A stretch of DNA of 64,000 nt from NCBI GenBank assembly GCA_027482185.1, contig JAIXWF010000019.1, positions 310,001 through 374,000 on the forward strand. Direction: 5' to 3'. Positions 17,468-55,828 of this stretch are shown here, one piece after another. Positions within the stretch are counted from its first letter, which is position 1, and every line of letters begins with the position of its first letter. This stretch comes from Opitutaceae bacterium (lineage in GTDB: Bacteria; Verrucomicrobiota; Verrucomicrobiia; Opitutales; Opitutaceae). The position numbers and the translations under genes were made by a program. The notes under the pieces are model-generated. The model made no database searches, had not been told where the DNA came from, and saw nothing but the letters and a program-made list of their open reading frames with translations.

Positions 17468-17519
17468 TTCCGCAACCGCGGCTTTACGCGCCGCCGCCGC
17501 GCCCCCACGCTCCGGCGGC

Positions 17520-18473: not shown

Positions 18474-18493
18474 AGCTTGTTGCTTAAAGCTTA
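18468..18493. repeat. Short tandem repeat at a convergent gene junction
   Basis: GCTTAAAGCTT occurs twice, at 18468-18478 and 18483-18493. The two copies supply the TAA stops of the GT2 genes on either strand. The unit contains the palindrome AAGCTT. Confidence 0.6.
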
Positions 18494-19426: not shown

Positions 19427-19508
19427 CGCGGAAACTTAGCCGCAAATCGCGCAACCGGCGCAAGCCCAGCCTCCCGCCGCCCGTCACTTTATCCCTTCCG
19501 CTCGTCAC

Positions 19509-20481
19509 CTATGCCCGCCTCGGCCGCGGCGAAAGCGCCGCGCTCTTCCGCGCGAGCGCCGTCTCGAGCTCGACCCGCGGTTTCCTGCCCAATTTCTTCC
19601 GGATCAACCGGTCGTCCGCGAAATAATCTCCGATATCGATCTTCTTCCGGTCGCCGGGAAATGCGCGCACGGCGAATTCGCCGCCGCCGTTTAGCCGGAC
19701 CATCGTTTCCGCAAGTTCGCGCAACGTCACCGGCGGCGGCCCGCCGAGATTGAACACTTCGCCCACCGCCGCCGGGCGCGCGGCCGCGAGCAAAAACGCC
19801 TCCACCGCGTCGTCGACATACGTGAAATCGCGACGCTGTTCCCCGCCCCACACTTCGATCGGTTTCCCTTCGATCAGGCGACGGACCCACACGCCGACGA
19901 AGGTCTGCCGCGCGTCCTTGATCCGCATGCGCGGCCCGATCGTGTTCGTCAGCCGCAGCGCCGTCGCCGCGATGCCGTGCACGCGGGAATAGAGCAGATG
20001 GAAAGACTCGCCAGCGATCTTGTTGATGCCGTTCACGTCCACCGGGCGCAGCGGATGCCGTTCGTCCACCGGCAGGTAGTCCGGCCGGCCGTAGATCTGC
20101 CGCGTGCTCGCGAACACGATCCGCACCTTGGGATTGTGCTGCCGGCACGCTTCCAAAATCGCCAGCTGCGCCCGGCAATTGATATCCAGATCCGTCTGCG
20201 GATCCGTCATCGAGTCCATGTGGCTCGTCTGGCCCGCCAGATTGAACAGGTAATCCTGGCCCGCCACGAGCCGCGGCAGCCGCGGCCAATCCCGCACATC
20301 CGCGATGTGCACCTTCACTCGCCGCGCGAGGCCGGCGAGGTTGCGACGGTTGCCGCCCGTACTCCGGCACAAGGCTGTCCACCACCGCCACCTTCGCCCC
20401 GAGCCCGACGAGCCGGCGCACCAGGTTCGAACCGATGAATCCCAACCCGCCGGTCACCAGCACGCGTTTCCCGCGGAACAC
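19509..20481 (-). pseudogene. NAD-dependent epimerase/dehydratase, interrupted by a +1 frameshift
   Basis: The N-terminal Rossmann part (VFRGKRVLVTGGLGFIGSN) reads from a GTG at 20481. The remaining 280 residues continue in another frame from about 20358. The expected sequence VPEYGGNRRNL is restored by removing one G from the GGG run at 20356-20358 (CCC on the top strand). Downstream are ASTRQIYG, NGINKIAGE in place of YxxxK, GPRMRIKDARQTF and RRDFTYVDD. The gene is 973 bases, one more than a multiple of three. Either it is broken or the base is a sequencing error; the coding part is otherwise undecayed, which favours a recent event or an error. Confidence 0.85.
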
Positions 20482-32023: not shown

Positions 32024-33196
32024 ATGGCCGCGCCCTACCTGATCGACCTCTCCCACACCGGCCACACGCGCGCCCGGACCGGGATCCAGCGCGTCACGCG
32101 TTCGCTCCACGCGGCGCTCGGCCCGCGCGCCGTCGCCGTCACCCACGATCCCTATGCCGGCACGTGGCGAACCTTCGAACCTTGGGAAAACGCCAACCTC
32201 GCCGCCGTCGCCCCCGCGGCCAAACGCGGCGCCGCCTGGCCGCTCGCCGCGCGCCTCCGCGGCCGCGCCCGCCGTTGGCTCGGCCCCCGGCCCGCCGTGC
32301 TCCCGCCCGCCGCCGGGCTGATCGTGCCCGAGCTGTTTTCCGCCGCCGTCGGCGCCGCGCTGCCCGCACTCTTCGCGGCCGTCGCCGGCCCGCGCGTCGC
32401 GCTCTTCCACGACGCCATCGCACTCAAGTTTCCCGAACTCTCCGCGGCGAAGACCGTCGCGCGCTTCCCTCCCTACCTGGCGGAATTGCTCCGTTTCGAC
32501 GGCGTCGCCGCCGTCTCCGAGGACTCGCGCGCCTCGCTTGTCGACTACTGGCAATGGCTCGGCGCCAAGTCCGCGCCGCCCGTCGTCGCGATTCCCCTCG
32601 GCATCGACGCGCCTCCGGCTCCAGCGACCGCTTCGCTCAACGCGGGCGAGCCCGAGATCCTGTGCGTCGGCAGCCTCGAGGGCCGCAAAAACCACCTCGC
32701 GCTGCTCGAGGCCTGCGAGTCGCTCTGGGCCCGCGGCGTCCGCTTTTCCCTCCGCCTCATCGGCCTCGCGCAACCGCAGACCGGCGCCGCCGCGCTGCAG
32801 CGCGTCCGCGAACTGCAGGCCGCCGGCCGGCCGCTCCGCTACGACGGCCCCGTCGGCGAAGCCGAACTCGAGCGCGCCTACGCCGCGTGCACGTTCACCG
32901 TGTATCCGTCGCTCGTCGAAGGCTTCGGCCTGCCCGTGCTCGAGAGCCTCGCCCGCGGCAAACCCTGCATCTGCTCCGGCCGCGGCGCCCTCGGCGAATC
33001 CGCCCGCGGCGGCGGCGCGCTCATGCTCGATCGCGTCGGCGCGAACGACTTGGCCGCCGCTCTGGACCGCCTGCTCGGCTCCCCGGCGGAATTGGCCGCG
33101 TTGGCCGAAGCCGCCCGCGCGCGGCGTTTCCGGTCGTGGGCCGACTACACCCGCGACCTGACGTCGTGGCTCGACGGCCTCGCCCGGCGAGCCTGA
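32024..33196 (+). CDS. GT4-family glycosyltransferase
   Basis: 390 residues. The N-terminal GT-B domain contains ALFHDAIALKFPEL and AVSEDSRASLVDYWQWLG. The C-terminal domain has CVGSLEGRKNHLALLEA and YPSLVEGFGLPVLESLARGKPCI (EX7E donor motif). It is a clear paralogue of the enzyme at 54097, with the same FHDAI and YWxWLG signatures. It follows the GT-C-like gene closely, so cytoplasmic and periplasmic steps may share an operon. Confidence 0.88.
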   Translation: MAAPYLIDLSHTGHTRARTGIQRVTRSLHAALGPRAVAVTHDPYAGTWRTFEPWENANLAAVAPAAKRGAAWPLAARLRGRARRWLGPRPAVLPPAAGLIVPELFSAAVGAALPALFAAVAGPRVALFHDAIALKFPELSAAKTVARFPPYLAELLRFDGVAAVSEDSRASLVDYWQWLGAKSAPPVVAIPLGIDAPPAPATASLNAGEPEILCVGSLEGRKNHLALLEACESLWARGVRFSLRLIGLAQPQTGAAALQRVRELQAAGRPLRYDGPVGEAELERAYAACTFTVYPSLVEGFGLPVLESLARGKPCICSGRGALGESARGGGALMLDRVGANDLAAALDRLLGSPAELAALAEAARARRFRSWADYTRDLTSWLDGLARRA

Positions 33197-33272: not shown

Positions 33273-34469
33273 ATGGCGTTATCTTTCTTCACGAAAAACA
33301 AGAAGCCCCTGCTGGCGCGTTGCCGCGACGACTACGCCACCAAGATGCGCCTGAAGTACGCGCCGTACTATCACGCCATGGAGTACCAGAAGGGCACGAC
33401 CGTGAAGCTCGACGGCCGCGAGATGATCATGCTTTCGAGCAACGATTACCTCGGCCTGTCGTTCCATCCCAAGGTCATCGAGGCCGGCCGCGCCGCCATG
33501 CTCAAGTGGGGCACCAGCACCACGGGCGCCCGCACCTCCAACGGTTCCCGCGCCTACCACGTCGAGCTCGAGGAACGCCTCGCCGCCTTCCTCGGCCGCG
33601 AAGCCTGCCACGTCCACGTCGCCGGCTACATTTCCTGCCTCTCCAGCGTCGCGTCGTTCGCCCAGAAGGGCGACGTCATCCTCGCCGACAAGAATATCCA
33701 TTCCTGTCTCTGGGACGGCATCCGCCTCTCGATGGCCACGGTCGAGCGCTTCTCGCACAACAGCCCCGACGATCTCCGCGAGGTCCTCGGCGCCGTCAGC
33801 GCCGACGCCGTCAAGATGCTCGTCATCGAAGGCGTGTATTCGATGGAGGGCCACATCGCGCGGCTGCCCGAGATCACGGAGATCGCGGAAGAACACGGCT
33901 GCTTCAGCGTCCTCGACGACGCGCACGGCTTCGGCGTCCTCGGCCGCCAGGGCCGCGGCACGGTCGACCACTTCGGTTTGAACGACAAAGTCGACGTTGT
34001 CTGCGGCAGTATGTCGAAGTCGCTCGCCAGCACCGGCGGTTTCGTCGCCGCCTCCCGCGAAATCATCGAGTACCTCCGGACCAATTCGAAGCAGACGATC
34101 TTTTCCGCCGCCATCAGCCCGAGCCAGGCCGCCTGCGCGCAGGCTTCCTTGGATCTGATGCAGTCGGAACCGCAGCACCTCGAGCGTCTCTGGGCCAACA
34201 CCCGCAAGTACCGCGCGATGCTCAAATCGCTCGGCCTCGACACCTGGGAAAGCGAAACGCCGGCCGTGCCGATCGTCCTCGGTTCCAAGGAGCGCGTCTA
34301 CCCGTTCTGGAAGGCCCTGCTCGAGAAAGGCGTCTTCACGGTCATGTCGATCGCGCCCGCCGTGCCCGCCGGCAAAGACTTGGTCCGCACCGCGATCTCC
34401 GCGATGCACACCGACGAGCAGCTCGAGAAAATCGCGGAGGCCATGGCCTACGCGGTGAAGAAGATGTGA
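33273..34469 (+). CDS. Alpha-oxoamine synthase (PLP enzyme; serine palmitoyltransferase / AONS / KBL family)
   Basis: 398 residues, standard for the family. LSSNDYLGLS, HVHVAGYISCLSSV (substrate site), DDAHGFGVLGRQGRG and CGSMSKSLASTGG with the PLP lysine at K249 are all present. Family members condense an acyl-CoA or acyl-ACP with Gly, Ala or Ser. The sequence (VYSMEGHIARLPEI, DHFGLNDKVDVV) is close in style to bacterial serine palmitoyltransferase and KBL. No biotin genes, kbl partner tdh or sphingolipid genes adjoin it, so the substrate is open. A 9-bp hairpin follows the stop. Confidence 0.85.
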   Translation: MALSFFTKNKKPLLARCRDDYATKMRLKYAPYYHAMEYQKGTTVKLDGREMIMLSSNDYLGLSFHPKVIEAGRAAMLKWGTSTTGARTSNGSRAYHVELEERLAAFLGREACHVHVAGYISCLSSVASFAQKGDVILADKNIHSCLWDGIRLSMATVERFSHNSPDDLREVLGAVSADAVKMLVIEGVYSMEGHIARLPEITEIAEEHGCFSVLDDAHGFGVLGRQGRGTVDHFGLNDKVDVVCGSMSKSLASTGGFVAASREIIEYLRTNSKQTIFSAAISPSQAACAQASLDLMQSEPQHLERLWANTRKYRAMLKSLGLDTWESETPAVPIVLGSKERVYPFWKALLEKGVFTVMSIAPAVPAGKDLVRTAISAMHTDEQLEKIAEAMAYAVKKM

Positions 34470-34562: not shown

Positions 34563-35831
34563 TCAGAGCTTGTACGGCAGCGGATACCGCGACGTCACCG
34601 CCGCGACCCGCACCTTCACGGCCTCGAGCGCCGCGGCCTCGCCCGGCGTGCCGATGGCGGCCAGCACGGTGTCGATGCAGCCGGCGATCTCCGCCATGTC
34701 GGACTCGACGAAACCGCGCGTCGTCACCGCCGGCGTGCCGAGGCGGATGCCCGAAGCCTGGAACGGGCTGCGCGTCTCGAACGGCACCGTGTTCTTGTTG
34801 CAGGTGATGTGGGCGAGATCGAGGGTCTCCTGCGCCTTCTTCGCCGTGAGCTCGGGGAACTTGGTCCGCAGGTCCACCAGCATGAGGTGGTTGTCCGTGC
34901 CGCCGGAAACAATCTTGTAGCCGCGCGCCGTCATCGCGGCCGCGAGCGCCCGCGAGTTCTTCACGATCTGCTCCGAGTAGGTCCGGAATTCCGGCTTCAG
35001 GCATTCCGCGAAACACACGGCCTTCGCCGCGATCACGTGCATCAGCGGGCCGCCCTGGCCGCCGGGGAACATCGCGGAGTCGATCGCCTTCGCGTGCGCC
35101 GCCTTGCAGAGAATCAGGCCGCCGCGCGGGCCGCGCAGCGTCTTGTGCGTGGTCGTGGTGACGAAATCGGCATGCGGCACCGGCGACGGGTGCACGCCCG
35201 CGGCCACGAGGCCCGCGATGTGCGCGATGTCGGCGAAGAGGTACGCGCCGACCGAGCGCGCGATCTCGCCCATGCGGGCGAAATCGATTATGCGCGAGTA
35301 GGCGCTCGCGCCCACCGTGATCATCTTCGGCTTTTCGCGCTGCGCCACCGCGGCCAGCTCGTCGTAGTCGATCAGGCCGTTGTCCTCGCGCACGCCGTAT
35401 TGCACGAACGAATACTGCTTGCCGGAGAAATTCGCCGGGTTGCCGTGGGTCAGGTGGCCGCCGTGGCTCAGGTTCATGCCGAGGATCTTGTCCCCGAGCT
35501 GCAGCACCGCCGTGTAGACCGCGAAATTGGCCTGCGAGCCCGAGTGCGGCTGCACGTTGGCGTGCTCGGCGCCGAAGAGTTTCTTCGCGCGCTCGATCGC
35601 CAGGGTCTCGACTTTGTCGACGTGCTCGCAGCCGCCGTACCAGCGCTTGGCCGGATAGCCCTCGGCGTACTTGTTCGTCAGCACGCTGCCCTGGGCTTCC
35701 ATCACCGCCGGGTACGTGAAGTTCTCGGACGCGATCAGCTCGATGTGGCTTTGCTGCCGGCCGAGTTCGGCGGCGATGGCGGCATGGATCTCGGGATCGA
35801 GCGTGCGGAGCGGGACGGCGGCGAGGGACAT
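34563..35831 (-). CDS. glyA: Serine hydroxymethyltransferase
   Basis: 422 residues, typical size. The PLP lysine is K230 in [47 protein letters not shown] and [10 protein letters not shown] are hallmark segments. The enzyme interconverts serine and glycine with tetrahydrofolate in one-carbon metabolism. It lies on the same strand as, and downstream of, the phosphatase at 35923, in a layout sometimes seen with low-molecular-weight phosphatases. No glycine riboswitch was recognised. Confidence 0.97.
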
Positions 35832-44723: not shown

Positions 44724-45269
44724 ATGAATCCCGCGGACGTCAACCTCTACCTCGTCGGTTTCATGGGCACCGGCAAGACGACGGTCGGCCGCGCGGTGGG
44801 CCAGAAGCTCGGCTTCCAGGTCGTCGACAGCGACCACGAGATCGAGCGCCTGCAGGGCAAGTCGATCCCCGAGATCTTCGCGCAGGACGGCGAACCGGCG
44901 TTCCGCGCCCTCGAAAAAGCGTTCGTCGCCACCGGCCATCCCGCCGAGCGCACGCTGGTCGCCTGCGGCGGCGGCCTCGTCGTGCAGCCCGGCATGCTGG
45001 CCGAGCTGAAGGCCCGCGGCATCGTCGTCTGCCTCCACGCCTCCCTCGAGACCATCCTCGCGCGCACCGCGCGCCACCGCAACCGGCCGCTTCTCGACGT
45101 CGAGAACCCCGAGGAACGCATCCGCACGCTGTACGCCGCCCGCGAGGCGATCTACCGGCAGTCGGGCACGCTCATCCTTACCGACTCGCGGCCGCTGTCC
45201 GACATCGTCGCGCACGTCGTCCGCACCTGGCGGCGCGAGGCCGCCGATTTCGCCCGCGCCCGCCGGTGA
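44724..45269 (+). CDS. aroK: Shikimate kinase
   Basis: 181 residues. Walker A is GFMGTGKTT (12-20). DSDHEIE, FRALEKAFV and CGGGLVVQPGMLAELKARG follow, and RPLL with NPEERIRTLY is the lid region. It phosphorylates shikimate in aromatic amino-acid synthesis. The stop overlaps the GTG start of queG (GTGA), so the two are coupled. Confidence 0.94.
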   Translation: MNPADVNLYLVGFMGTGKTTVGRAVGQKLGFQVVDSDHEIERLQGKSIPEIFAQDGEPAFRALEKAFVATGHPAERTLVACGGGLVVQPGMLAELKARGIVVCLHASLETILARTARHRNRPLLDVENPEERIRTLYAAREAIYRQSGTLILTDSRPLSDIVAHVVRTWRREAADFARARR

Positions 45270-46471
45270 ACGCGCCCGCCGGCACCCCCGCGCCCCTGCC
45301 CGGGCCGGACCACGCCACCCAGGAAGCGCTCCGCGCGCGCCTGCACGCCCTCGGCTTCGACAGCGTCCGCTTCGCCGCCGCCGATCCCGCCGTCGCGCCC
45401 CCGCTCAGCGCCTGGCTCGACGCCGGGATGCACGCGGACATGCAGTGGCTCGAACGCGGCGCCGCCAAGCGCCTCGACCCCGGCCTCGTGCTCTCCGGCG
45501 TGCGCTCCGTCATCATGCTCGGCGTCAGCTATTGGTCCGAACAACTCCCGTCGCCCCCAAACCCAAAACCCAAAACTCAAAACGGCGGCACCGCCGGCGC
45601 CGGCCCCGTCTGGGCGCGCTACGCCCTGCACGAGGACTATCACGACACCATCAAGCCCGCCCTCGTCTCCGCGGGGCGGATACTCGAGGAACTCTGCGGC
45701 GCGGCGCCGGCGGACTACCGGTACTACGTCGACACCGGCCCCGTGCTCGAGCGCAGCTGGGCCGCGCGCGCCGGCCTCGGCTTCACCGGCAAGAACGCCA
45801 TGCTCATTTCGCGCGAGCACGGCAACTGGCTCTTCCTCGCGTCGATCCTCACGCGGGTGCCGTTCGCGCCGGACGCGCCCGTGCGCCTGAAATACGCCGA
45901 GCGCGAGGTCGGCCTGCTCTGCGGCCGCTGCACGCGCTGCCTCGACGCCTGCCCGACACAGGCCTTCGCCGCGCCCGGTGTGCTCGACGCGCGCCGCTGC
46001 GTGTCCTACCAGACGATCGAGAACAAGGGCGTCATCCCGCGCGAACTGCGCCCGGGCATCGGCGCCCGGATTTACGGCTGCGACGTCTGCCTCGAGGTCT
46101 GCCCGTGGAACCGTTTCGCGCGCGACGGCCGCCGCCTCCTGCTCTCCGCCCGCTACGACCTCGCGGCCCTCTCGCTGGCCGAACTGCTCGCGCTCACGCC
46201 GGAATCGTTCGCGACCGTCTTCCGCCGCACGCCGATCAAGCGCCTGAAACTCGCGGGCCTGCTCCGCAACGCCTGCGTCGTCGCCGGCAACATCGGCGAT
46301 GTCTCGCTCCTGCCCGCCCTCGTCGGTCTCGCCGCCGGCCATGCGTCGCCGCTCGTGCGCGCCCACGCCGTCTGGGCCGTGCACCGGCTCGGCGGGGGAG
46401 CGGCGCTAGCGGCCGCCCGCGCCGCGGAGACGGATGCGTCCGTCTGCGCCGAATACGCCGCGGAATCCTGA
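45266..46471 (+). CDS. queG: Epoxyqueuosine reductase with an in-frame repeat-derived loop
   Basis: 401 residues. The cobalamin-dependent fold carries the catalytic Asp D156 (YVDTGPVLER) and WAARAGLGFTGKN. Two [4Fe-4S] clusters are formed by CGRCTRCLDACP (C219, C222, C225, C229) and GCDVCLEVCPW (C272, C275, C279) with C245. It reduces epoxyqueuosine to queuosine in tRNA. Residues about 98-106 (NPKPKTQN) are encoded by an ACCCAAAAC-type repeat, in a loop where homologues have a few residues. A HEAT-like C-terminus follows. The start is a GTG overlapping aroK. Confidence 0.93.
   Translation: MNAPAGTPAPLPGPDHATQEALRARLHALGFDSVRFAAADPAVAPPLSAWLDAGMHADMQWLERGAAKRLDPGLVLSGVRSVIMLGVSYWSEQLPSPPNPKPKTQNGGTAGAGPVWARYALHEDYHDTIKPALVSAGRILEELCGAAPADYRYYVDTGPVLERSWAARAGLGFTGKNAMLISREHGNWLFLASILTRVPFAPDAPVRLKYAEREVGLLCGRCTRCLDACPTQAFAAPGVLDARRCVSYQTIENKGVIPRELRPGIGARIYGCDVCLEVCPWNRFARDGRRLLLSARYDLAALSLAELLALTPESFATVFRRTPIKRLKLAGLLRNACVVAGNIGDVSLLPALVGLAAGHASPLVRAHAVWAVHRLGGGAALAAARAAETDASVCAEYAAES
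45559..45584 (+). repeat. ACCCAAAAC repeat inside queG
   Basis: AAACCCAAAACCCAAAACTC and the following AAAAC lie in the coding frame of queG. The 16-mer ACCCAAAACTCAAAAC is shared with the intergenic tandem copies at about 8041-8085. Confidence 0.8.
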
Positions 46472-46507
46472 ACCCGCGCCGGAGTCCGGCGACCGATTCG
46501 CCGCCGC

Positions 46508-46933
46508 TCAGGCCGGCGCCGCGCCGCCCGCACGGGCGAACGCCGCATCGAACACGGCCACCACGTGCGCCGGCGGCCGGATCGGCCGGCCGCCGCGGTC
46601 GATGAACGCATGCACGGTTGCGCCCGTCGCCAACAGCTCTTCGCCGCGCCGCACTTCGTAGGTGAGCTTGATCCGCAGCAGCGGTTTTTCCGCCAACGTC
46701 GTGAGAATCGTCACGGTGTCGTCGTACACCGCCGGCCGCAGGTACTTCACCGCCACCTCGAGCACGGGCAACCGGTAGCCTTCCTCCTCCAATTGCCGGT
46801 ACGGCAGCCCCATTTCCTTCAGCAGCGTCGTGCGCCCGATTTCGAACCATGGCAGGTAGTTGCCGTGGTAGACGACTCCCATCATGTCGGTTTCCGCGTA
46901 GCGGACCGTGACCTGGGCGCGCGACTGGATCAT
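46508..46933 (-). CDS. Hotdog-fold acyl-CoA/ACP thioesterase (YbgC-like)
   Basis: 141 residues, the usual 4HBT size. VRYAETDMMGVVYHGNY contains the catalytic Asp (D16) of YbgC/4-hydroxybenzoyl-CoA thioesterases. It hydrolyses acyl-CoA or acyl-ACP. Its start overlaps the stop of the upstream GT4 gene by four bases (ATGA), so both are made together. The acyl substrate is unknown, but the neighbouring ACP and ketosynthase genes provide a natural one. Confidence 0.9.
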   Translation of the reverse strand: MIQSRAQVTVRYAETDMMGVVYHGNYLPWFEIGRTTLLKEMGLPYRQLEEEGYRLPVLEVAVKYLRPAVYDDTVTILTTLAEKPLLRIKLTYEVRRGEELLATGATVHAFIDRGGRPIRPPAHVVAVFDAAFARAGGAAPA

Positions 46934-48090
46934 GATTCGGAAACGGCCGGCGGCGGGAACAGCGCCGCGGCGCTCTCTTTCCAGCACGTGCGCAGCGCCC
47001 ATTCGCGGCCGGCCTCGCCGAGCCGCCGCCGCAACGCCGGATCGTGGATCAGTTTTTCGAAGGCCGCCGCCAGTTGGACCGGACGCTGCGGCGGCACCAG
47101 CAAGCCGGTCCGGCCGTCGAGCACCGCCTCGGCGACACCTCCGACGTCGTGCGCCACGACCGGCAGCCCGTGCGCCGCGGCCTCGAGGTAGACGAGGCCG
47201 AAGCCCTCGACGCTGCGGTCGAGGTTGATGCTCGTCATCGCGAAGATGTCCGCGCTGTCGTACACGCGCGAGAGTTCCTCGTCGGGCATGTTGCCGAGAA
47301 ACTTCACCGCCAGATCCGGTTTCTCCGCCGCCGCCGCGCGCAGCAGTTCCTCGTAACGGCCTTTGCTCTGGCCGCCGACGATCCAGTATTCGAGACGCGC
47401 GCGGAGTTCGGGCGGGAGCAGCTGCAGCGCCTGCAGGGTGAGCAACTGCCCCTTGCGGGGATGGAGCCGGCCGACCGTCAGGACGACGATCTTGCGGCCC
47501 GCGCGCTCCGGCCGCACGGGCACGACGGCGAAGTCCGACCGCAGCGCGCCGGGGGTCAGGAAGATCTTGTCGGCGGCCTCGGGAAAGTGGTTCAGCAGCA
47601 GTTCCTGCGTGAAGTTGGTCAGCGTGCTGACCCGTGTCGCCCGCCGGATCAATTGTCCCGCCAGCCAACGCCGCAGGGGGCTGCCGGCGAAGAGCAAAAT
47701 CTCCGAACCGTGGAACGTGAGCACCAGCCGCCTCGGCCGGAAGGTCTGGAAAAACTGCAGCAACATCATCGTCATCATCGGCCCCGGTTCGGGCAGGTAG
47801 ACGGTCGCGTTCCGCAAGGCCCGGCGATGCCGGATGAGTTCGCGGGCCAGCTGCACCTGGCAGGACAGGTCGTGCGTGCCGCGCAACGGCATCCGCCGCA
47901 ACCGGAACGGCCAGTCGGACTTCTCGGCCGCCGCCGGCGCCGCCTGGGCCCAGACCTCGACCCGATGCCCGAGCGCCGCCGAAGCCCGCGCGATCTCCTC
48001 CGTGAACGTGGCGATGCCCCCCCGTTTCGGATAGAACTCGTGGGTAATCAGGAAGACCGGCGGCGCGGCGTGGCTGGCGGAAGCGGACAA
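46930..48090 (-). CDS. GT4-family glycosyltransferase
   Basis: 386 residues. FLITHEFYPKRGGIATFTEE is the N-terminal glycine-rich acceptor loop; VLTVGRLHPRKGQ, FLGNMPDEELSRVYDSADIFAM and EGFGLVYLEAAAHGLPVV complete the GT-B signature. No ATG lies near; the start appears to be TTG at 48090, just before MSASASHAAPPVF. It is translationally coupled to the thioesterase and divergent from the ACP-dehydratase gene. Confidence 0.87.
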   Translation of the reverse strand: MSASASHAAPPVFLITHEFYPKRGGIATFTEEIARASAALGHRVEVWAQAAPAAAEKSDWPFRLRRMPLRGTHDLSCQVQLARELIRHRRALRNATVYLPEPGPMMTMMLLQFFQTFRPRRLVLTFHGSEILLFAGSPLRRWLAGQLIRRATRVSTLTNFTQELLLNHFPEAADKIFLTPGALRSDFAVVPVRPERAGRKIVVLTVGRLHPRKGQLLTLQALQLLPPELRARLEYWIVGGQSKGRYEELLRAAAAEKPDLAVKFLGNMPDEELSRVYDSADIFAMTSINLDRSVEGFGLVYLEAAAHGLPVVAHDVGGVAEAVLDGRTGLLVPPQRPVQLAAAFEKLIHDPALRRRLGEAGREWALRTCWKESAAALFPPPAVSES

Positions 48091-48305
48091 GGGACGTGCC
48101 GGCAGGCTCCGCCCGCACGGGCCGGCTGCCGGTCCGACCAGCTACGTTCGCCCCGGCCCGGGTGGCAAGCGCGGCCTGCGTTTCGGCGCATGGACCGAAA
48201 GCTGCTCAGCTTCCGCATCATCCCCGTCGGCAAACTCCTTCATGCTTCGGCGCCGACGAAATAATGGGTTTACTTCCCTCCCCTGTAACATACAACGAAC
48301 GAACA

Positions 48306-49295
48306 ATGCCCGATGCAGTTCAAACCAGTCCCGGAGCGGGCAAACCGCTGCTGCCGACGACACCCAAACCCTTTTCACCAGAAGACGAAGGCAGCCTCCG
48401 GGAAGCTCTGAAACGCTGTTCTCCGTCCACGTTTGAAGCTGCTATCCAGTATCGTAAAACCGGTAACGCTGAACATGTTCCGGCAGTCGTGATCGGGGTG
48501 ATCGAGCGGTTTGTGGAGCCCGACCTGCGGGTCAAGTTGAAGGATGCGGACGACGACCTCCGCCTGATCGAAGACTTGGGGATCGATTCCCTGACGATGA
48601 TGGAAATCGTCATTCTGGTCGAAGATGTCCTGCAGCTTTCGATCAACAACGACGAGTTGCGCAATCTGCGGACCGTCGGCGACGTCAAGACCTTCATCGA
48701 TTGCAAGATCCGCGGTTTGCCCCTGCCCAAACCGACGAAGTTCATCCCGATCGAGACCATCGGCGCCATCATGCCGATCCAGCCGCCGTTCCTGTTCCTG
48801 AACGAGGCCTCCGTCAGCTCCACGGCTGCCAACGGCAAATACAAGATCTCCGGCCAGGAATTCTTCCTGCAAGGTCATTTCAAGGACAACCCCGTGATGC
48901 CCGCCTCGATCATGCTCGAGGCCCTCGGCCAGCTGGCCGTGCTGTATCTCCTGGAAGGTGCCCCCACCGAAACCGGCAAGGTCGTCAGCCCCCAGACCAT
49001 CTTCTTCACCGGCTGCGAAGGCGTCCGCGCCCACCGCGTCTGCAAGCCGGGCGACATCCTCACCCTTTCGATCAAGCCGAAGCGCATGAAGATGCCGCTC
49101 GCCACGTTCGAAGGCGCGATCCGCGTCGGCCCCGAAAAAGCCGTCATCGTCGAGGAAATCACGCTGACCTACGGCTTTGTCGACGCCGTCAACGCCCCCG
49201 TCTCGATCAACGTCAACGGCTCCGCCCACGCGGAACCGGCCGTCCCGAGCCCGACCGCCGCGCCGACTCCGCTCCGCGCCGCCATCAACGCCTGA
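48306..49295 (+). CDS. Acyl carrier protein fused to a FabZ-like dehydratase
   Basis: 329 residues. The ACP domain (about 60-135) has DLGIDSLTMMEIVILVED with the phosphopantetheine serine S95. The FabZ-type hotdog domain follows: IGAIMPIQPPFLFLNEA, QGHFKDNPVMPASIMLEALGQ (catalytic H191, E205) and FFTGCEGVRAHRVCKPGD. The usual HR of the FabZ opening is replaced by IQ. ACP plus dehydratase in one chain implies dedicated elongation of a 3-hydroxyacyl intermediate. The first 600 bases show visibly lower GC at third positions than the neighbours. A terminator follows the gene before the ketosynthase. Confidence 0.88.
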   Translation: MPDAVQTSPGAGKPLLPTTPKPFSPEDEGSLREALKRCSPSTFEAAIQYRKTGNAEHVPAVVIGVIERFVEPDLRVKLKDADDDLRLIEDLGIDSLTMMEIVILVEDVLQLSINNDELRNLRTVGDVKTFIDCKIRGLPLPKPTKFIPIETIGAIMPIQPPFLFLNEASVSSTAANGKYKISGQEFFLQGHFKDNPVMPASIMLEALGQLAVLYLLEGAPTETGKVVSPQTIFFTGCEGVRAHRVCKPGDILTLSIKPKRMKMPLATFEGAIRVGPEKAVIVEEITLTYGFVDAVNAPVSINVNGSAHAEPAVPSPTAAPTPLRAAINA

Positions 49296-49320
49296 ACCGC
49301 ACCTTCCCGGGTGCTTCGCC

Positions 49321-49354
49321 AACGGCGGCCGCTCCGGCCGCCGTTTGTTTTTTT
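49321..49354 (+). terminator. Rho-independent terminator or attenuator between the ACP-dehydratase and ketosynthase genes
   Basis: AACGGCGGCC at 49321-49330 pairs with GGCCGCCGTT at 49336-49345 around a 5-base loop, then TGTTTTTTT. It lies inside what looks like one operon, so it may let the ACP be made in excess over the downstream enzymes. Confidence 0.9.
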
Positions 49355-49453
49355 GGGGGAAACTCCCGGACCGTCGGGGCGTCATCCGCCGCTCCCGCCT
49401 CCCGCGTTGACCACCGCGCGGGAACGCTGTCTCTTCCTTCCTCCCATCGGCGT

Positions 49454-50716
49454 ATGCCCAGAGTTTTCATCACCGGCCTCGGATTCGTCACCAGCATCGG
49501 CAACGACCGCCCCGCCGTCACCCGCAACCTCCGCGATCTCCGCCACGGTTTCGAGCTCTACCCGCCCTTCGACAAGCCCGACATCCCCGTCAAGGTGATC
49601 GGCACGATCAAGGACTTCACGACCGACTCGACCGACCCCGAGGACTGGACCTACCCCGCCCGCTACCGGATCAAGCGCGAACTCCTCCGCACCATGGCGC
49701 CGAGCGGGCTCTTCGCCCACTGCGCGATGCTGCAGGCGATCGAGGATGCGAAACTCTCCGACGCCGACGTCTCCAATCCCGAGACCGGCCTCTACGCGGC
49801 CTCCGGCGGTTCGCCCTACCTGCTCAACTACCACCACAACCGGCTCCACAAGCTCGGTGTGCTGCGCTGCTCCCCGCTCGGCATTGTCGCTTCGATCGCC
49901 GGCACCCTGAATTTCAATCTCGTCGCCGCCTTCCGGATCCAGGGCGCCTCCTGCGGCTTCTCCTCCGCCTGCGCCTCGTCCGCCCACGCCCTCGGCTACG
50001 GCTTCGACGACCTCGTCCTCGGCCGCCAGAAACGCATGTTCATCGTCGGCGCCGAAGACGGCAACCTCGACGCCATTCTGCCCTTCGCGGGCATGCGCAC
50101 GCTGTCGCTGCAAACCGACCCGAATCTCGCCTCCCGCCCCTTCGATGCCGCCCGCGACGGCTTCGTCGGCACCGGCGGCGGCGTGGTCCTCGTCCTTGAG
50201 ACCGAAGACGAAGTCGCCCGCCGCGGCGTCACCCCCTACGCCGAGGTCCTCGGCTGGGGCCAGGCTTCCGACGGTTACAACGTCGCGATTTCCCATCCCG
50301 AAGGCAGCGGTTCCGCCGCCGCCATGACCCTCGCGCTCCGCACCGCCAAGGTCGCGCCCGAGCAGGTCGATTACGTCAACGCCCACGCGACTTCGACGAT
50401 CATCGGCGATGTCTCCGAGGCCCGCGCGCTGCGCAGCGTTTTCAAATCCGGCCTTGGCCGTGTCGCCGTCAGCAGCACGAAAGCCCTCACCGGCCACGGT
50501 CTCTCCCTCGCCGGCGCGATGGAAAGCGCGTTCAGCGCCGTCGCGCTCCGCGAAGGATTCATTCCCGGCAACCCGCATCTGCGCCAGCCCGACCCCGAGT
50601 GCGCCGACCTCAATCTGCCCCGGACCACGGAAAACCGCGCCCCCGGCATCGTGATCAAGAACAGCAGCGGCTTCGGCGGAGCCAACGTCGCGCTGGTCTT
50701 CAAACGCGTCGCCTGA
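49454..50716 (+). CDS. Beta-ketoacyl-ACP synthase (FabF/KAS II family)
   Basis: 420 residues. The triad is C173 (SSACASSAHAL), H311 (NAHATSTIIGD) and H348 (STKALTGHGLSLAG). K343 is the conserved lysine. It condenses malonyl-ACP with an acyl primer. The N-terminal part (HGFELYPPFDKPDIPVKVIGT) differs from ordinary FabF, which suggests a specialised clade. It is followed four bases later by an SDR gene. Start is ATG 49454 with no ribosome-binding site. Confidence 0.92.
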   Translation: MPRVFITGLGFVTSIGNDRPAVTRNLRDLRHGFELYPPFDKPDIPVKVIGTIKDFTTDSTDPEDWTYPARYRIKRELLRTMAPSGLFAHCAMLQAIEDAKLSDADVSNPETGLYAASGGSPYLLNYHHNRLHKLGVLRCSPLGIVASIAGTLNFNLVAAFRIQGASCGFSSACASSAHALGYGFDDLVLGRQKRMFIVGAEDGNLDAILPFAGMRTLSLQTDPNLASRPFDAARDGFVGTGGGVVLVLETEDEVARRGVTPYAEVLGWGQASDGYNVAISHPEGSGSAAAMTLALRTAKVAPEQVDYVNAHATSTIIGDVSEARALRSVFKSGLGRVAVSSTKALTGHGLSLAGAMESAFSAVALREGFIPGNPHLRQPDPECADLNLPRTTENRAPGIVIKNSSGFGGANVALVFKRVA

Positions 50717-50720
50717 CCCC

Positions 50721-51557
50721 GTGGCTGCGACCCGCGTCTCCGAGCTCTACCGCACGGCCTTCGTCACCGGCGCGAGCACCGGCCTCGGCCGCGCCTTTGC
50801 GGAGATGCTCCTCGCCGACGGTGTCCGCGTCTGGGGCACCTCGCGCGACGCCGCCCGCCTCGATCCGCTCGCCCGCGCTTTTCCGGATACCTTCCGCGCC
50901 GTCGCCTGCGACCTCGCCGACGGCGCCGCCGCGGCCGCCGTCTTCCGGACCGCGTCCGACCAGGCCGGCGGTTTCGATCTCGTGGTAAACAACGCCGGCT
51001 ACGGCGTCTTCGCCGAATTCGCCGGAGCCGATTTCGAAGTCTGGCAGGAACAGATCGAGGTCATGCTCGTGAACACCGCGCGTCTCTCCCATGCCGCCCT
51101 GCGCGCCCACCTCGCCCGCGGCCGCGGCGCCCTCGTCAATATCTCGTCCCTCGCCGCCGAGTTCCCGCTGCCGTTCCAGAGCGCCTACAACGTCGTCAAG
51201 GCCGGCCTCTCCGCCCTCAACGAAAGTCTCCTGCTCGAGACCGCCGGTACCGCCGTGATCGTGCTCGATGTCCGGCCCGGCGACTACCGCACCGATTTCG
51301 AAGGGTCCGTCCGCCGCCCCCAAGCCGCGCCCACCCCGCGGATGGAGCGCGCCTGGCGTGCCTTCGACGGCATGATGCGCAGCGGCCCGCCGCCGGCCCA
51401 CGCCGCCGCCTGCCTGCGCACGGCCCTGCTCCGGCAACGCCGCGGCACGTTGCGCATCGGGCGTTTCTTCCAGGCCGTCGTCGCTCCGTTTCTCGCCCGC
51501 CTTGGCTCCCTCGACCTGAAGCGCCGGATCCAGGCCCGCTACTTCGACGTCGGCTGA
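50721..51557 (+). CDS. Short-chain dehydrogenase/reductase, possible ketoreductase
   Basis: 278 residues of a classical SDR. TGASTGLG (16-23), NNAG (90-93), S142/S143 and Y156xxxK160 are intact. The C-terminal 60 residues are basic and hydrophobic (RIGRFFQAVVAPFLARLGSLDLKRRIQARYF), which suggests membrane contact and differs from soluble FabG. Start is GTG at 50721, four bases after the ketosynthase stop. In this setting it probably reduces a ketoacyl or sphinganine-type intermediate; this is inferred. Confidence 0.88.
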   Translation: MAATRVSELYRTAFVTGASTGLGRAFAEMLLADGVRVWGTSRDAARLDPLARAFPDTFRAVACDLADGAAAAAVFRTASDQAGGFDLVVNNAGYGVFAEFAGADFEVWQEQIEVMLVNTARLSHAALRAHLARGRGALVNISSLAAEFPLPFQSAYNVVKAGLSALNESLLLETAGTAVIVLDVRPGDYRTDFEGSVRRPQAAPTPRMERAWRAFDGMMRSGPPPAHAAACLRTALLRQRRGTLRIGRFFQAVVAPFLARLGSLDLKRRIQARYFDVG

Positions 51558-51573
51558 TCCGCCCTCCTCGCCG

Positions 51574-52788
51574 ATGTCCAAGGTCCGAATCCTCGTTCTC
51601 ACGTCCAGCACCGGCGGCGGCCACGACGCCCGCGCCCAGGCCTTCGCGGAGTGGTGCTTCCAGCTCTACCGCCACGACGTCGACGTGCGCATCGAGCAGA
51701 TGCTCGAGAAATCCTCCGTCATCAACCGCGCCGGCGTCGGCTTCTACAACCGCATCCAGCGCGCGGCGCCGTGGATCCACAAACTGTTCTACGCCTTCGT
51801 CGAACTGCTGAGTTATCTCAACCGCAGCTCCGTCGTCCTCGGCAACGGCTACTACGTGAAGGTGCTGCAGGAGTACCGGCCCCACCTCGTCTTCAGCGTC
51901 CACGATTGCCTCAACCGCGGCTACTTCCCGCTGGCCCGCCGCATCCTCGGCGCCGACCGCGTCCGCTGCGCCACCTACTGCGGCGAGTTCTCCGGCGGCT
52001 GGGGCTACTCGCGCAACTGGATCGAGCCCAGCGTCGACCTCTATATTTCGCGCACGCCGACCGCCCGCGACTACGCGGTCAAATGCGGCATCCCCGAGGC
52101 GCGCACGCGCGTCCGCGGCTCGATGATGCTGCCGCGTTCCTACTCCGAGATCGTCCCGCCCGAGGAACGCGGCGAATTCCGCGCCAAGCGCCTCGGCCTC
52201 GATCCCGACAAGTTCACCGTCTTCCTCGCCACCGGCGGCAACGGCGCCAACAACCACGCCGCCCTCCTGCCCGCGCTCCTGCGCCACGCCGACCGTGTGC
52301 AGGCGATCGTGATCTGCGGCCGCAACCAGGAAACCTACAACGAACTCGTCCACTGGCGCGCTCTGCACCCCGAGTTCTCCTGCTACATCGAGGCCTACTC
52401 GGAAATCGTCCATCTGCTGATGCAGGCGAGCGACGCCATCGTCACCCGCGGCGGCACCACCACCTGCGCCAAGGCCCTGCATTTCCGCTGCCCGATCGTC
52501 TTCAATGCCTTCGGCGGCATCATGCCGCAGGAAGAACTGACGTGGAAATTTTTCCGCAACGGCGCCGCGTCCGAAAAGATCGAGAGCGCCGGCGACTTCG
52601 CCCGCATCGTCGACCGCTGGATGGCGGAGCCGGCGAGCTACACCGCCGTCCGCGCCAACTTCCTCCGCCTCCGGTACGAGGACGATCCGACGGTCGTGAT
52701 CGACGAGCTGGTGGAACTCGCCAACGCCGCGGCCGGCGCGAAACTCCGCCGCCAGCCGTTCCCGCCGACCCGCGGCCGAAACACCTAG
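51574..52788 (+). CDS. GT28-type lipid glycosyltransferase (MGDG synthase/UgtP-like)
   Basis: 404 residues. LTSSTGGGHDARAQAF (from residue 10) is the N-terminal membrane and acceptor motif of MGDG synthases, and VTRGGTTTCAKALHFRCPIV is the C-terminal donor site. LYISRTPTARDYAVKCGI and FLATGGNGANNHAALLP are also typical. These enzymes add a hexose from UDP-sugar to diacylglycerol or other lipids. The gene is 17 bases after the SDR, which suggests that the lipid made by the upstream enzymes is glycosylated. Confidence 0.85.
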   Translation: MSKVRILVLTSSTGGGHDARAQAFAEWCFQLYRHDVDVRIEQMLEKSSVINRAGVGFYNRIQRAAPWIHKLFYAFVELLSYLNRSSVVLGNGYYVKVLQEYRPHLVFSVHDCLNRGYFPLARRILGADRVRCATYCGEFSGGWGYSRNWIEPSVDLYISRTPTARDYAVKCGIPEARTRVRGSMMLPRSYSEIVPPEERGEFRAKRLGLDPDKFTVFLATGGNGANNHAALLPALLRHADRVQAIVICGRNQETYNELVHWRALHPEFSCYIEAYSEIVHLLMQASDAIVTRGGTTTCAKALHFRCPIVFNAFGGIMPQEELTWKFFRNGAASEKIESAGDFARIVDRWMAEPASYTAVRANFLRLRYEDDPTVVIDELVELANAAAGAKLRRQPFPPTRGRNT

Positions 52789-52834
52789 GCGCGCGGCGCC
52801 TCTTCCGCGTTGCGCGCCGCGCGGTGCGTTTCCC

Positions 52835-54100
52835 ATGCTCGGACCCACGTTGTCCTCGCCGCCCGCCATCGCCTACCTGTACACGACGTTTCCGAAGAGC
52901 ACGGAAACGTTCCTCCAACGCGAGATCATCGCCCTCCGCGCGCGCGGCGTGAATCTCCGGATTTATTCCCTCTGGGGCGGCGGCGGCACGTTCCGGGGCC
53001 TGCCCGTGGCGACCTTCAACAAATGGCGCCTGCTCACCCTCGTCTGGATGATTCCCTACGAGGCCTGGCGCCGGCCCGAGGTCCTGCGCGAATTGCTCCG
53101 CGGTCTGCGCACGCGCCGCGCGCCCTCGTGGCTCAACTTCTGGGAAAACATGCTCGGCGCCGGCTTCGCCTGCCTCTTCGCCGGCGAATTCCGCCGCGAC
53201 CCGCCCGCTTGGATCCACGCCGCCTGGGGCGGCGCGCCCGCCACCGCCGCGTGGCTGCTCTGGCGCCTCGACGGCCACCGCTTCAGCGCCGCCGCGCACG
53301 CCTACGATATCTTCGAGCACGGCGGCGATTGGTGGCTCGACGAAAAATTGCGCCACGCCGCCTTCGTCCACACCTCCACCGAGATGGGGCGCCGCGCCCT
53401 CCTCGCCCGCGGGCACGACGCCGCCCGCCTCGTCTGCATCCGTCGCGGCCTCGACCGCCTGCCCGAGCTCAAGCCGCTCCGCCGCGACCGCTCCGTGCTC
53501 CGCCTCGTCTGCGTCGCCCGCCTCGTCGAGAAAAAGGGCCTCGACCACCAGCTCCGCATCTACGCCGCGCTGCAGGCCGCCGGCATTCCTTTCGCCGCCC
53601 GCATCATCGGCGAAGGCCCGCTCCGCGGCGAACTCGAGAAACTCGCCGGCCACCTCGGCATCGCCGGCCAACTCACCTTCGCCGGCCACCTGCCCCAGCA
53701 CGAGGTCTGGAACCAACTCGCCTGGGCCGACGTGCTCCTGCACACGGGCGTCATCGCGCCGAGCGGCGACCGCGACGGCCTGCCCAACGTCATCCCCGAG
53801 GCGATGTCCGCCGGCGTGCTCGTGATCACTTCGCCCGCCGCCGCCACCACCGAAGCCGTCGCCCAGGGCATCACCGGGCTCGTCGCCCCCGTCGACCATC
53901 CCGCCGACTGGGTTGCCGCGCTGCGCCGGCTCGCGTCCGACGACGCGTTCGCGGAAAAGCTCCGCACCGCCGCCCGCCGCTGGGTCGAGGAAAACTTCGA
54001 CGCCCACCGCAACTCGGGCCGGCTGCTCGCCCTTTTCCACGAAGTCCTCGCCGGTCCCGCCGCACCCGCGGCCGCGCCCGCGCCGGGCCAGGCGGCGTGA
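52835..54100 (+). CDS. GT4-family glycosyltransferase (colanic-acid-type)
   Basis: 421 residues. IAYLYTTFPKSTETFLQREIIAL is a typical N-terminus of exopolysaccharide GT4 enzymes. VCVARLVEKKGLDHQLRIYA, GEGPLRGELEKLA, FAGHLPQHEVWNQLAWADVLLH and DGLPNVIPEAMSAGVLVI define the donor side. The stop TGA overlaps the GTG start of the next gene. The Ala-rich tail is low-complexity. Confidence 0.88.
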   Translation: MLGPTLSSPPAIAYLYTTFPKSTETFLQREIIALRARGVNLRIYSLWGGGGTFRGLPVATFNKWRLLTLVWMIPYEAWRRPEVLRELLRGLRTRRAPSWLNFWENMLGAGFACLFAGEFRRDPPAWIHAAWGGAPATAAWLLWRLDGHRFSAAAHAYDIFEHGGDWWLDEKLRHAAFVHTSTEMGRRALLARGHDAARLVCIRRGLDRLPELKPLRRDRSVLRLVCVARLVEKKGLDHQLRIYAALQAAGIPFAARIIGEGPLRGELEKLAGHLGIAGQLTFAGHLPQHEVWNQLAWADVLLHTGVIAPSGDRDGLPNVIPEAMSAGVLVITSPAAATTEAVAQGITGLVAPVDHPADWVAALRRLASDDAFAEKLRTAARRWVEENFDAHRNSGRLLALFHEVLAGPAAPAAAPAPGQAA

Positions 54101-55152
54101 TCTACTTCGACGTCACCCAGACCGGCTCCGCCGCCCACCGCTCCGGCCTCACCCGGGTCGGTCGCCGCCTGCTCGCCGAGCTCGGCTCCGCGGCCGTCGC
54201 CGCCGTGTGGCGCGACGGCGCCCTCCGCCGCGCCGACTCCGGCGCCCCTGTCGCCCCGGCACGCGACGACTGGTTTCTCACCGCCGAACTCTTCTCCGAG
54301 GCGGAACGTCCGGGCTTCGCCGCCTTCCTCGCCGCGCGCCCGCTGCGCTGCGCCGCGGTTTTCCACGACGCCATCCCGCTCAAGCACCCGCACATCACCT
54401 GGCCGAAGAGCGTCGCCCGCCACCCGGGCTACCTGAAGCTGCTCGCCGCCTTCGACCGCATCTTCGCCGTCTCCGCCGCCAGCCGCGACGAACTGCTCGG
54501 CTACTGGCGCTGGCTCGGGCTCGCCGCGACGCCGCCCGTCGGGACCGTCGCACTCGGCGCCGACGCCGCCGGCACGCCGCGTATCACCCATCCGGCGACG
54601 CCGTCGGCCCCGCCGGAGCTGCTCTGCCTCGGCATCCTCGAGCCGCGCAAAAACCAGACCCTCCTGCTCGCCGCCTGTGCGCCGCTCTGGCGCGAGGGTC
54701 TCGACTTCCGGCTTCACCTCGTCGGCCGCGTGAACCCGCACTTCGGCCGGCCGATCGCGGAGGCCGTGGCGCGCCTGCGCCGCGAGGTCGGCCCGCGGCT
54801 CGTCCATCATGCGGACGCCGACGATGCCGCCGTGGCCGCACGTTTCGCCGCCGCCCGCGCCACCGTTTTTCCCACGCTGGCCGAGGGTTGCGGCCTGCCG
54901 CTGCTGGAGTCGCTGTGGCACGGCGTGCCCTGCGTGTGCAGCGACCTGCCGGTGCTCCGCGAAAACGCCGACGCCGGCGGTTGCCTGCCGGTGGCGCCCG
55001 ACGATCCCGCGGCGTGGACCGCGGCGCTGCGCCGCATCCTGACCGACGACTCGCGGCACGCCGACTTGGCGCGCGCCGCGGCCACACGCTCCCTGCCCAC
55101 GTGGGCCGCGACCGCCGCGCAGATCCGCGCGTCGCTCGCGTCTCCCGCCTGA
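54097..55152 (+). CDS. GT4-family glycosyltransferase, paralogue of the enzyme at 32024
   Basis: 351 residues beginning at GTG (VIYFDVTQTGSAAHRSG), overlapping the previous gene by GTGA. AVFHDAIPLKHPHI, AVSAASRDELLGYWRWLG, CLGILEPRKNQTLLL and FPTLAEGCGLPLLESLWHGVPCV match the enzyme at 32024 in order. One gene is in the polysaccharide region, the other behind the acyl-lipid genes, so the two products may share acceptors or represent a duplicated step. Confidence 0.87.
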   Translation: MIYFDVTQTGSAAHRSGLTRVGRRLLAELGSAAVAAVWRDGALRRADSGAPVAPARDDWFLTAELFSEAERPGFAAFLAARPLRCAAVFHDAIPLKHPHITWPKSVARHPGYLKLLAAFDRIFAVSAASRDELLGYWRWLGLAATPPVGTVALGADAAGTPRITHPATPSAPPELLCLGILEPRKNQTLLLAACAPLWREGLDFRLHLVGRVNPHFGRPIAEAVARLRREVGPRLVHHADADDAAVAARFAAARATVFPTLAEGCGLPLLESLWHGVPCVCSDLPVLRENADAGGCLPVAPDDPAAWTAALRRILTDDSRHADLARAAATRSLPTWAATAAQIRASLASPA

Positions 55153-55171
55153 GCCGGGGCACCGCCCCGGC

Positions 55172-55828
55172 CTACTTGCCCGCCGGAGCGGCCGCGGCCG
55201 GCGCGGCCGTGGCCTGCTTGGCTTCGAGCGCCTTGATCGCCGTCAACCGCACCGACTCGACCTCGGGGGCATTGTGCGGGATCTCGAGTTTCGTTTCCGA
55301 CTTTGTATCGGTGCCGATGTGCTTGGCCGCGACCGCCGTGAGTACCGGCATCGCGGATTCCATGCGGCCGCTGAGGCCGAGCACCGCCACCTTCACGTCG
55401 AAAATCTCCGGCCCCGTCGCGCGGTCGAGACTTCGGCCGGGATTGGTCCGGCCGGAAAACTGCACGAACGTCTCGCGCGACTTCGGATCCGTGCGCCCGG
55501 CCGTGTCGGTGCCGAATCCGACTTCCACAAAAACGTCCGGCGCCACTTTCTCCGGCGCCTCGTACATCCCGATGCCCGTCAGGGCTGCGTCGACGCAGGC
55601 CTTCACGACCTGCACCTGGACCTGCTGCGCGTTCCCGACGACGGATTTGCGGGCGGACAAGCGGTAAGATTTGCCCGCGACCTTGGTGTCGGGCGCCGCG
55701 AGGGCGTCGACCAGCACGCGGTGCTTCTGGACGAAGATATTGCCGCAGCCCGACAGGAGCAGCAGGCCCACGAGACCGCCGAGCACGATCGCCAGCAGGG
55801 AGCGCGGGGAACTGGGAGAGGGCTTCAT
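55172..55828 (-). CDS. Exported lipoprotein of unknown function
   Basis: 218 residues. A hydrophobic signal ends in the lipobox LLSGC (Cys about residue 28), so lipid anchoring is expected. The mature part has a run VVGNAQQVQVQVVKACVDAAL and a long stretch of alternating beta and polar segments without a known motif. The C-terminus is Ala/Pro-rich. It converges with the GT4 gene to the left; nothing links it to ptsI, which lies upstream on the same strand. Confidence 0.8.
   Translation of the reverse strand: MKPSPSSPRSLLAIVLGGLVGLLLLSGCGNIFVQKHRVLVDALAAPDTKVAGKSYRLSARKSVVGNAQQVQVQVVKACVDAALTGIGMYEAPEKVAPDVFVEVGFGTDTAGRTDPKSRETFVQFSGRTNPGRSLDRATGPEIFDVKVAVLGLSGRMESAMPVLTAVAAKHIGTDTKSETKLEIPHNAPEVESVRLTAIKALEAKQATAAPAAAAPAGK

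Follow-up and report, generated by a model that had tools for sequence, protein, structure and literature searches.

Which lipid does a bacterium of the Opitutaceae (Verrucomicrobiota, order Opitutales) make with a gene block that joins fatty acid enzymes to glycosyltransferases? The block occupies positions 46508–55152 of the window, by which we mean the whole 64,000-nucleotide stretch analyzed here, a part of one contig (G000:C22) in a 6.4-Mb genome. The original prediction, made from the window alone, had assigned the block to one pathway that makes a glycosylated lipid. Comparison with related genomes lends good support to a single conserved locus for a glycosylated lipid; the chemistry proposed for it was incomplete, and an alpha-oxoamine synthase (AOS) resembling serine palmitoyltransferase (SPT) had been overlooked. 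Because the locus is tied to this AOS, its product is more likely a sphingoid-type amino lipid than a plain glycosylated fatty acid. Judging from the genes, the locus probably makes a glycosylated sphingoid-type lipid using a fatty acid module of its own.

Gene content and conserved gene order

Gene content and catalytic residues could be read directly from the window, and gene order and co-occurrence from the related genomes. The plus strand of the block begins with an acyl carrier protein (ACP) fused to a FabZ/FabA-type dehydratase (ACP-FabZ; 48306..49295, 329 amino acids; Pfam PP-binding and FabA, with a conserved N-terminal extension). It is followed on the same strand by a ketosynthase of the KAS I/II type (KAS; 49454..50716, 420 amino acids; N and C domains of Pfam ketoacyl-synt, intact Cys-His-His) and a short-chain dehydrogenase/reductase (SDR; 50721..51557, 278 amino acids, GTG start; Pfam adh_short). 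Next come a GT28-type lipid glycosyltransferase (51574..52788; PDB 4wyi and 9wde), which is kin to monogalactosyldiacylglycerol (MGDG) synthase and processive diacylglycerol glucosyltransferase, and two GT4 glycosyltransferases: GT4b (52835..54100; Pfam Glycos_transf_1) and GT4c (54097..55152; Pfam Glyco_trans_1_4), whose GTG start overlaps the GT4b stop. On the minus strand, GT4a (46930..48090; Pfam Glycos_transf_1, TTG start uncertain) diverges from ACP-FabZ, and its stop is overlapped by the gene of a hotdog thioesterase of the YbgC/FadM type (46508..46933; Pfam 4HBT_2, TIGR00051 over its cut-off). Both overlaps, that of the thioesterase with GT4a and that of GT4b with GT4c, are four bases long. 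The gap between ACP-FabZ and the ketosynthase is 158 bases, and the next gaps downstream are 4, 16 and 46 bases; such small gaps and overlaps would fit operons. All eight genes named by the original prediction were found where it had placed them, with their catalytic residues intact.

The original prediction had made its pathway depend on recurrence of this gene order in relatives, and the order does recur. We examined 80 loci from named genome records; because these were the best 80 of 307 confirmed candidates, the sample favors close relatives. The gene finder is crude and misses or mis-starts some genes; the counts were made with tblastn, and a locus was counted only where its contig reaches far enough. 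Two of the 80 records, L105 and L106, apparently hold one contig, and both were counted. The recurring order is thioesterase and GT4a on one side and, diverging from them, ACP-FabZ, KAS, SDR, GT28, GT4 and GT4 on the other. Upstream of ACP-FabZ, the divergent GT4a was present in 77 of 77 testable loci and the thioesterase in 73 of 73. Downstream, the KAS was found in 72 of 74, the SDR in 47 of 70, GT28 in 62 of 64, GT4b in 43 of 58 and GT4c in 41 of 55. The order is kept even where the proteins of relatives share as little as about 40–50% identity, and at this identity its recurrence would not be expected by chance.

The AOS is a pyridoxal phosphate (PLP) enzyme of 398 amino acids, encoded in the window at 33273..34469 on the plus strand. 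Directly 5' of its gene lies a further GT4-type glycosyltransferase, GT4d (32024..33196, plus strand; Pfam Glycos_transf_1), which in many relatives adjoins the AOS at the far end of the cassette. Of the 50 testable named loci, 29 have the AOS downstream of ACP-FabZ at a distance of no more than about 10 kb. In a set of 40 loci from relatives and from the genome of the window, the block recurs across the family and in part across the order; in 14 of them a protein of about 400 residues (cluster c0), which is the AOS, is encoded past the GT4 end, usually on the other strand. A looser constellation of the fusion, KAS, SDR, GT28, GT4 and AOS was seen in L185 and L186, which come from other orders, and in L187 from another family of the order. 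In G101, also from another order, the fusion is accompanied by GT4a, KAS and SDR, with the AOS at a distance.

Co-occurrence of the AOS and the fatty acid module

We scored the two genes in 95 relatives, with thresholds of E<1e-30 for the ACP, fused or not, and E<1e-90 for the AOS. Both were present in 71 genomes and neither in 15, which makes the AOS and the ACP concordant in 86 of 95; seven genomes had the ACP only and two the AOS only. These two, the only AOS-positive genomes of 73 without the ACP, are at most 70% complete. The AOS was present in 58 of the 61 sampled genomes of the family. Among the 34 genomes outside the family, 14 carried both genes, 14 neither, five the ACP only and one the AOS only. 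Of the 71 genomes that have both, 24 hold the two genes on a single contig, no more than 15 kb apart; in the rest they are mostly on different contigs.

For 288 genomes of the phylum, the thresholds were E<1e-140 for the AOS and E<1e-40 for the fusion or ACP plus FabZ. Both were found in 29 genomes, the module only in four (G079, G080, G243 and G308) and neither in 254; G239, which has the AOS with a weak ACP match adjoining, was counted apart. At E<=1e-20, 61 genomes gave a match; apart from G239 and the 33 counted as having the module, the remaining 27 had FabZ-type matches only, presumably of the housekeeping kind. Outside the order, the fusion was present in three of the 288 genomes, all of which also carry the AOS, at distances of about 70, 13 and 11 kb.

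The SDR follows the AOS as well. Its ortholog was found in 58 of the 95 genomes, and 57 of these 58 are AOS-positive. Where the AOS sits apart from ACP-FabZ and the KAS (G037, G057 and L195), the SDR remains near the AOS. The link between SDR and AOS thus has support from both the overlap and the proximity.

Relationship of the AOS to serine palmitoyltransferase

The best solved match of the AOS is the SPT of S. multivorum (PDB 3a2b, 320 bits for the protein of the window). In a tree of 30 AOS rows, the 21 locus-type rows formed one clade (support 100/99), which sits beside three SPT-type rows (94/92), namely one solved SPT and two SPT-like proteins of relatives, and apart from Kbl and BioF. 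Because several branches are long (BioF, L084, L098, L206 and 8s1y), the grouping with SPT depends on the 94/92 support. The residues point in the same direction: the SPT-type residue was found at N85 in 55 of 55 locus-type AOSs, at S243 in 55, at S245 in 51 and at L365 in 53. These four positions are uniform among the SPT rows and different in E. coli Kbl and BioF; N85, S245 and L365 were picked from nine comparison rows.

Second AOS copies, with about 33–39% identity, occur in some 28 genomes; the classified ones are those of L083, L098, L205, L206 and, in the genome of the window, L084. In two relatives the second copy is more SPT-like: that of L206 passes an SPT model (597 bits against a cut-off of 500), and that of L205 falls just short (624.6 against 640). 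The L205 gene stands with a GNAT protein and an epimerase-type reductase (L205:4037-8515), matching the published bCerS/CerR context; the GNAT was taken as bCerS from these neighbors. At L206:4153-7754, read by eye, the SPT gene stands with a small ACP and an acyl-activating enzyme. Both appear to be canonical-looking sphingolipid clusters, separate from the AOS of the present locus.

Fatty acid module, reductase and glycosyltransferases

Ser95 of the ACP and His191/Glu205 of the dehydratase are invariant in an alignment of 12 ACP-FabZ sequences, as are Cys173, His311 and His348 in 14 aligned ketosynthases. The N-terminus of the ketosynthase had been described as unusual; it is ordinary and reads MPRVFITGLGFVTSIGN from the ATG at 49454 (the Pfam scan of this protein was made from position 49523). 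Entries of KAS I top the PDB search with the ketosynthase, yet fabF is the highest-scoring NCBIfam model. The nearest named relative of ACP-FabZ is 97% identical and comes from a metagenome-assembled genome (MAG) of Opitutia; where their sources name them, the homologues are labelled as dehydratase, acyl carrier or phosphopantetheine-binding protein, or hypothetical. PF22818 is listed for such homologues in the protein search, and we gave it no weight because it was absent from our own Pfam scans even at E<=1. The ACP-FabZ and KAS of the window form an additional set, since the genome encodes elsewhere a housekeeping-type ACP adjoining a ketosynthase (L003) as well as a 500-residue frame with a FabZ-like domain (L012). 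Several genomes also contain stand-alone ACPs about 50–59% identical to the ACP domain of the fusion, for example at L081:7526-8023, where no dehydratase or ketosynthase of the locus type was found adjoining.

Tyr156 and Lys160 of the SDR are invariant in 19 aligned sequences, and its predicted structure is confident (pLDDT 95). The basic amphipathic tail once ascribed to it is a short C-terminal helix in this structure. The original prediction had also expected a malonyl transferase, a PPTase and an enoyl reductase to lie outside the block. The first two were not found among the ten scanned proteins of 45269–55828, and the sole enoyl reductase name among them came from a generic model, adh_short_C2, on the SDR itself.

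Four GT4 enzymes and one GT28 are linked to the locus. The GT28 shares a sequence family, and probably the lipid nature of its acceptor, with UgtP/YpfP (PDB 9wde) and MGD1 (4wyi). Unlike them, it lies under the curated cut-offs of both the diglucosyl-diacylglycerol and the MGDG synthase models (78 bits against 500 for NF010135, and 19 against 25 for Pfam MGDG_synth PF06925).

Proposed pathway

The steps of the pathway are proposed from protein families and from linkage. The growing chain would be carried on the ACP domain of the fusion. The ketosynthase would elongate it and the FabZ domain would dehydrate it, the other steps being left to FabD, FabG and FabI of primary metabolism. The AOS would then condense the ACP-bound acyl chain with an amino acid, L-serine being the most likely, and this decarboxylative step would release the chain as a 3-keto long-chain base. 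In the original prediction the thioesterase released the chain; once the AOS belongs to the locus, release by the AOS is the likelier, and the thioesterase may instead remove stalled chains. Of the reduction step assigned earlier to the SDR, the reductase itself is there, but its substrate may be the keto-base instead of a keto-acyl-ACP: where present, the SDR would reduce the ketone of the keto-base. GT28 and several GT4 enzymes would attach sugars.

Other features of the window and the genome

Another possible lipid locus lies elsewhere in the genome, in L062 (C19:276000-294000). At 8365-14063 of L062, a second ACP and ketosynthase pair, its KAS about 54% identical to that of the window, adjoins genes for inositol-1-phosphate synthase, a CDP-alcohol phosphotransferase and a GNAT protein. 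This is possibly a second, inositol-type lipid locus. In another genome, L085 holds an ACP-KAS pair with matches to the inositol-1-phosphate synthase and CDP-alcohol phosphotransferase genes of L062. In 20 loci with a pair of the L062 type, from this genome and its relatives, the neighbors varied.

In the window, a serine hydroxymethyltransferase gene (34563-35831) converges on the AOS gene. Read by eye, 15410-20372 contains RmlB/RmlA-looking nucleotide-sugar genes and several glycosyltransferases, which points to a polysaccharide region in the left half of the window. In the window, neither Rfam (at the gathering threshold) nor a tRNA search gave a match; PADLOC had no match for four proteins, and PHROGs gave weak matches alone, for two proteins.

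Discussion

A number of observations weigh against a sphingoid product. The AOS scores below the curated SPT models (391 bits against a cut-off of 640 for SPT-CFB, NF047600; 346 against 500; 282 against 670), and because 391 falls under 640, its SPT activity is putative; by its sequence the enzyme is SPT-like, yet it is not filed as an SPT. Two SPT positions have changed in the 55 locus-type AOSs: S81 is Ala in 49, and T241 is Ser in all 55, this being the Thr of the G-T-F-S-K-S PLP motif described as SPT-characteristic (PMC10196870). S243 is not exclusive to SPTs: the Kbl-type 8s1y and two further AOS rows share this Ser. In the genome of the window, the AOS lies 14 kb upstream of ACP-FabZ with other genes between them; the AOS and, before it, GT4d are separated from the rest of the locus by about 12 kb. 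Outside the family, only 15 of the 34 sampled genomes of the order have the AOS. The co-occurrence counts and Fisher values ignore phylogeny, and within the family, where the pair is nearly constant (57 of 61 genomes), no significant association results (p 0.10). The SDR is missing at E<=1e-50 from 16 of the 73 AOS-positive genomes, and its fold search was uninformative: all 50 matches listed were generic SDR or FabG-type chains. The SDR of the window scores higher with a FabG-type model (103.5 bits) than with KdsR (90.4 bits, rank 17). For the relatives' SDRs, KdsR ranks second in L185 (154.7 bits), third in L052 (104) and fourth in L195 (108), never first, and the SDR of L187 had no KdsR match at E<=1e-28. 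Finally, no ceramide synthase candidate was recognized among the scanned block proteins, in scans that used no bCerS or CerR reference sequence, and general scans without a CerR reference recognized neither CerR nor an acyl-ACP synthetase in the block. The GNAT of L062 (L062:12840-14063) was considered as the ceramide synthase of the locus and rejected as a general partner, as just 9 of the 95 genomes have it at E<=1e-20.

Could the module make a special fatty acid (unsaturated, very long or hydroxylated) for lipid A or for phospholipids generally, with the AOS and the glycosyltransferases as mere neighbors? Modules of the AcpXL type are known for lipid A, and the KAS I entries at the top of the PDB search, though NCBIfam ranks fabF highest, fit this idea. 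Nine genomes carry the module without the AOS (G024, G035, G075, G079, G080, G082, G094, G243 and G308), and because of them the module can serve something else, which also counts against the sphingoid reading; they reflect an AOS-independent role, a recent loss or an incomplete draft. In one of them (G094; L056:8672-11670), a KdtA-like, that is, Kdo-transferase-like, gene directly follows FabZ-KAS, and in another (G075; L061:8736-11280) the gene after the module has a start very similar to it, which hints at a role in lipid A there. Against this idea, however, the ACP is missing from only the two incomplete genomes among those with the AOS, the AOS and the module co-occur outside the order and sit together across families, and no acyltransferase model matched the scanned block proteins except ketosynthase-family ones. 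We regard the special fatty acid as rather improbable. In another conceivable reading, the AOS would be BioF, with the module supplying pimeloyl-ACP for biotin. BioF is an AOS able to use acyl-ACP, and the AOS of the window scores 330 bits with TIGR00858 (cut-off 426). BioB, however, passes its cut-off in 16 of the 95 genomes, the genome of the window not among them, and in only 6 of the 73 AOS-positive ones, so that a biotin role was rejected for most genomes; the E. coli BioF residues at 85, 243, 245 and 365 also differ from those of the AOS clade. The probability left to biotin is negligible. Clusters for aryl polyenes and flexirubin also combine an ACP, ketosynthase, dehydratase, ketoreductase, thioesterase and transferases, but a pigment locus of this kind is hardly credible here: no ammonia lyase, aryl-CoA ligase or MMPL exporter was found among the ten proteins scanned around the block, for which reason an aryl polyene was rejected, and the block has a single ketosynthase and is linked to an SPT-like AOS.

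The AOS may also be SPT-like but act on another amino acid, such as cysteate, glycine, alanine or a larger one, which would give a sulfonolipid-like, 1-deoxy or other amino-ketone glycolipid. Its separate clade under the SPT cut-off and the changes at S81 and T241 would suit such an enzyme, and AOSs of sulfonolipid synthesis exist (PMC9304779; PDB 28eh). With the same query, however, the cysteate enzyme 28eh gave 196 bits and the SPT of S. multivorum 309. Moreover, all 55 locus-type AOSs retain Asn52, His138, Ser243 and Lys244, and in the solved SPT the hydroxyl of L-Ser touches the PLP phosphate, Asn52 and the backbones of Ser243 and Gly80 (PMC10196870). We consider another amino acid unlikely, while giving it serious attention. 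A long-chain base derived from serine remains our preferred reading.

The closest known system is the pathway of a type I polyketide synthase (PKS), an AOS and a reductase, PfSgaABC. In Pseudomonas fluorescens MYb115, PfSgaAB(C) consists of an iterative type I PKS, an AOS with SPT activity and a KDSR-like SDR and serves sphinganine synthesis (PMC12134224). The pathway proposed here shares with it a dedicated chain-building machine that would feed an SPT-type AOS, with a KDSR-type SDR proposed alongside. In loci of the relatives, a ketosynthase, an ACP-dehydratase, the AOS and an SDR are linked. Unlike with the PKS, chain building at the present locus is dissociated into the ACP-FabZ fusion and a separate KAS, with FabG and FabI needed from elsewhere. 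The AOS is nearly constant in its family, whereas PfSgaAB(C) is described as a scattered cluster, and the present locus differs further in its five linked glycosyltransferases.

A module for a very-long-chain fatty acid, AcpXL-FabZXL-FabFXL, serves rhizobial lipid A. Like it, the present locus sets a special ACP, a FabZ and a KAS beside the housekeeping fatty acid synthase; it is linked to an AOS and glycosyltransferases, whereas the AcpXL module is linked to the acyltransferase LpxXL. An ACP dedicated to SPT is already known from the AcpR-dependent enzyme (PMC9386255). The ceramide pathway of the Caulobacter type uses Spt, a special ACP, an acyl-ACP/CoA synthetase, bCerS and CerR (PMC9386255, PMC11087976). 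There too, an SPT-like AOS is genetically tied to a special ACP; in contrast, the ACP of the present locus is fused to a dehydratase and has its own KAS, and the last three enzymes were not recognized in the block.

Bacterial sphingolipids were once thought to be rare, and likely producers have been inferred mostly from Spt, bCerS and CerR (PMC11334938). The same work counted Spt-like proteins in 22 MAGs of Verrucomicrobiota, and the accessible part of it does not describe the present locus. For another verrucomicrobial genus, the accessible part of a polar lipid account names phospholipids and unidentified lipids and no sphingolipid (PMC11980603). We found no account of the locus in a search of titles and abstract openings of the open full-text literature; most subscription papers lie outside that search, and absence is not proven. 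Nor did that search turn up the combination found here: a dissociated module of ACP-FabZ and KAS, a separate AOS clade and five linked glycosyltransferases, conserved across the family and part of the order.

We tentatively suggest that the Opitutaceae and many other Opitutales possess a dissociated, type II version of the PKS-AOS pathways to sphingolipids. In it, a private ACP-dehydratase fusion and ketosynthase would build a special acyl chain, and an SPT-like AOS of a new clade would release a long-chain base that is glycosylated without a canonical ceramide synthase. The product would be a core membrane glycolipid of the family and much of the order, separate from the canonical-looking clusters of at least two members. 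If this is true, it would give the ACP-FabZ fusion a role and add a group of sphingolipid producers, another way of making long-chain bases and, perhaps, a new class of glycolipids.

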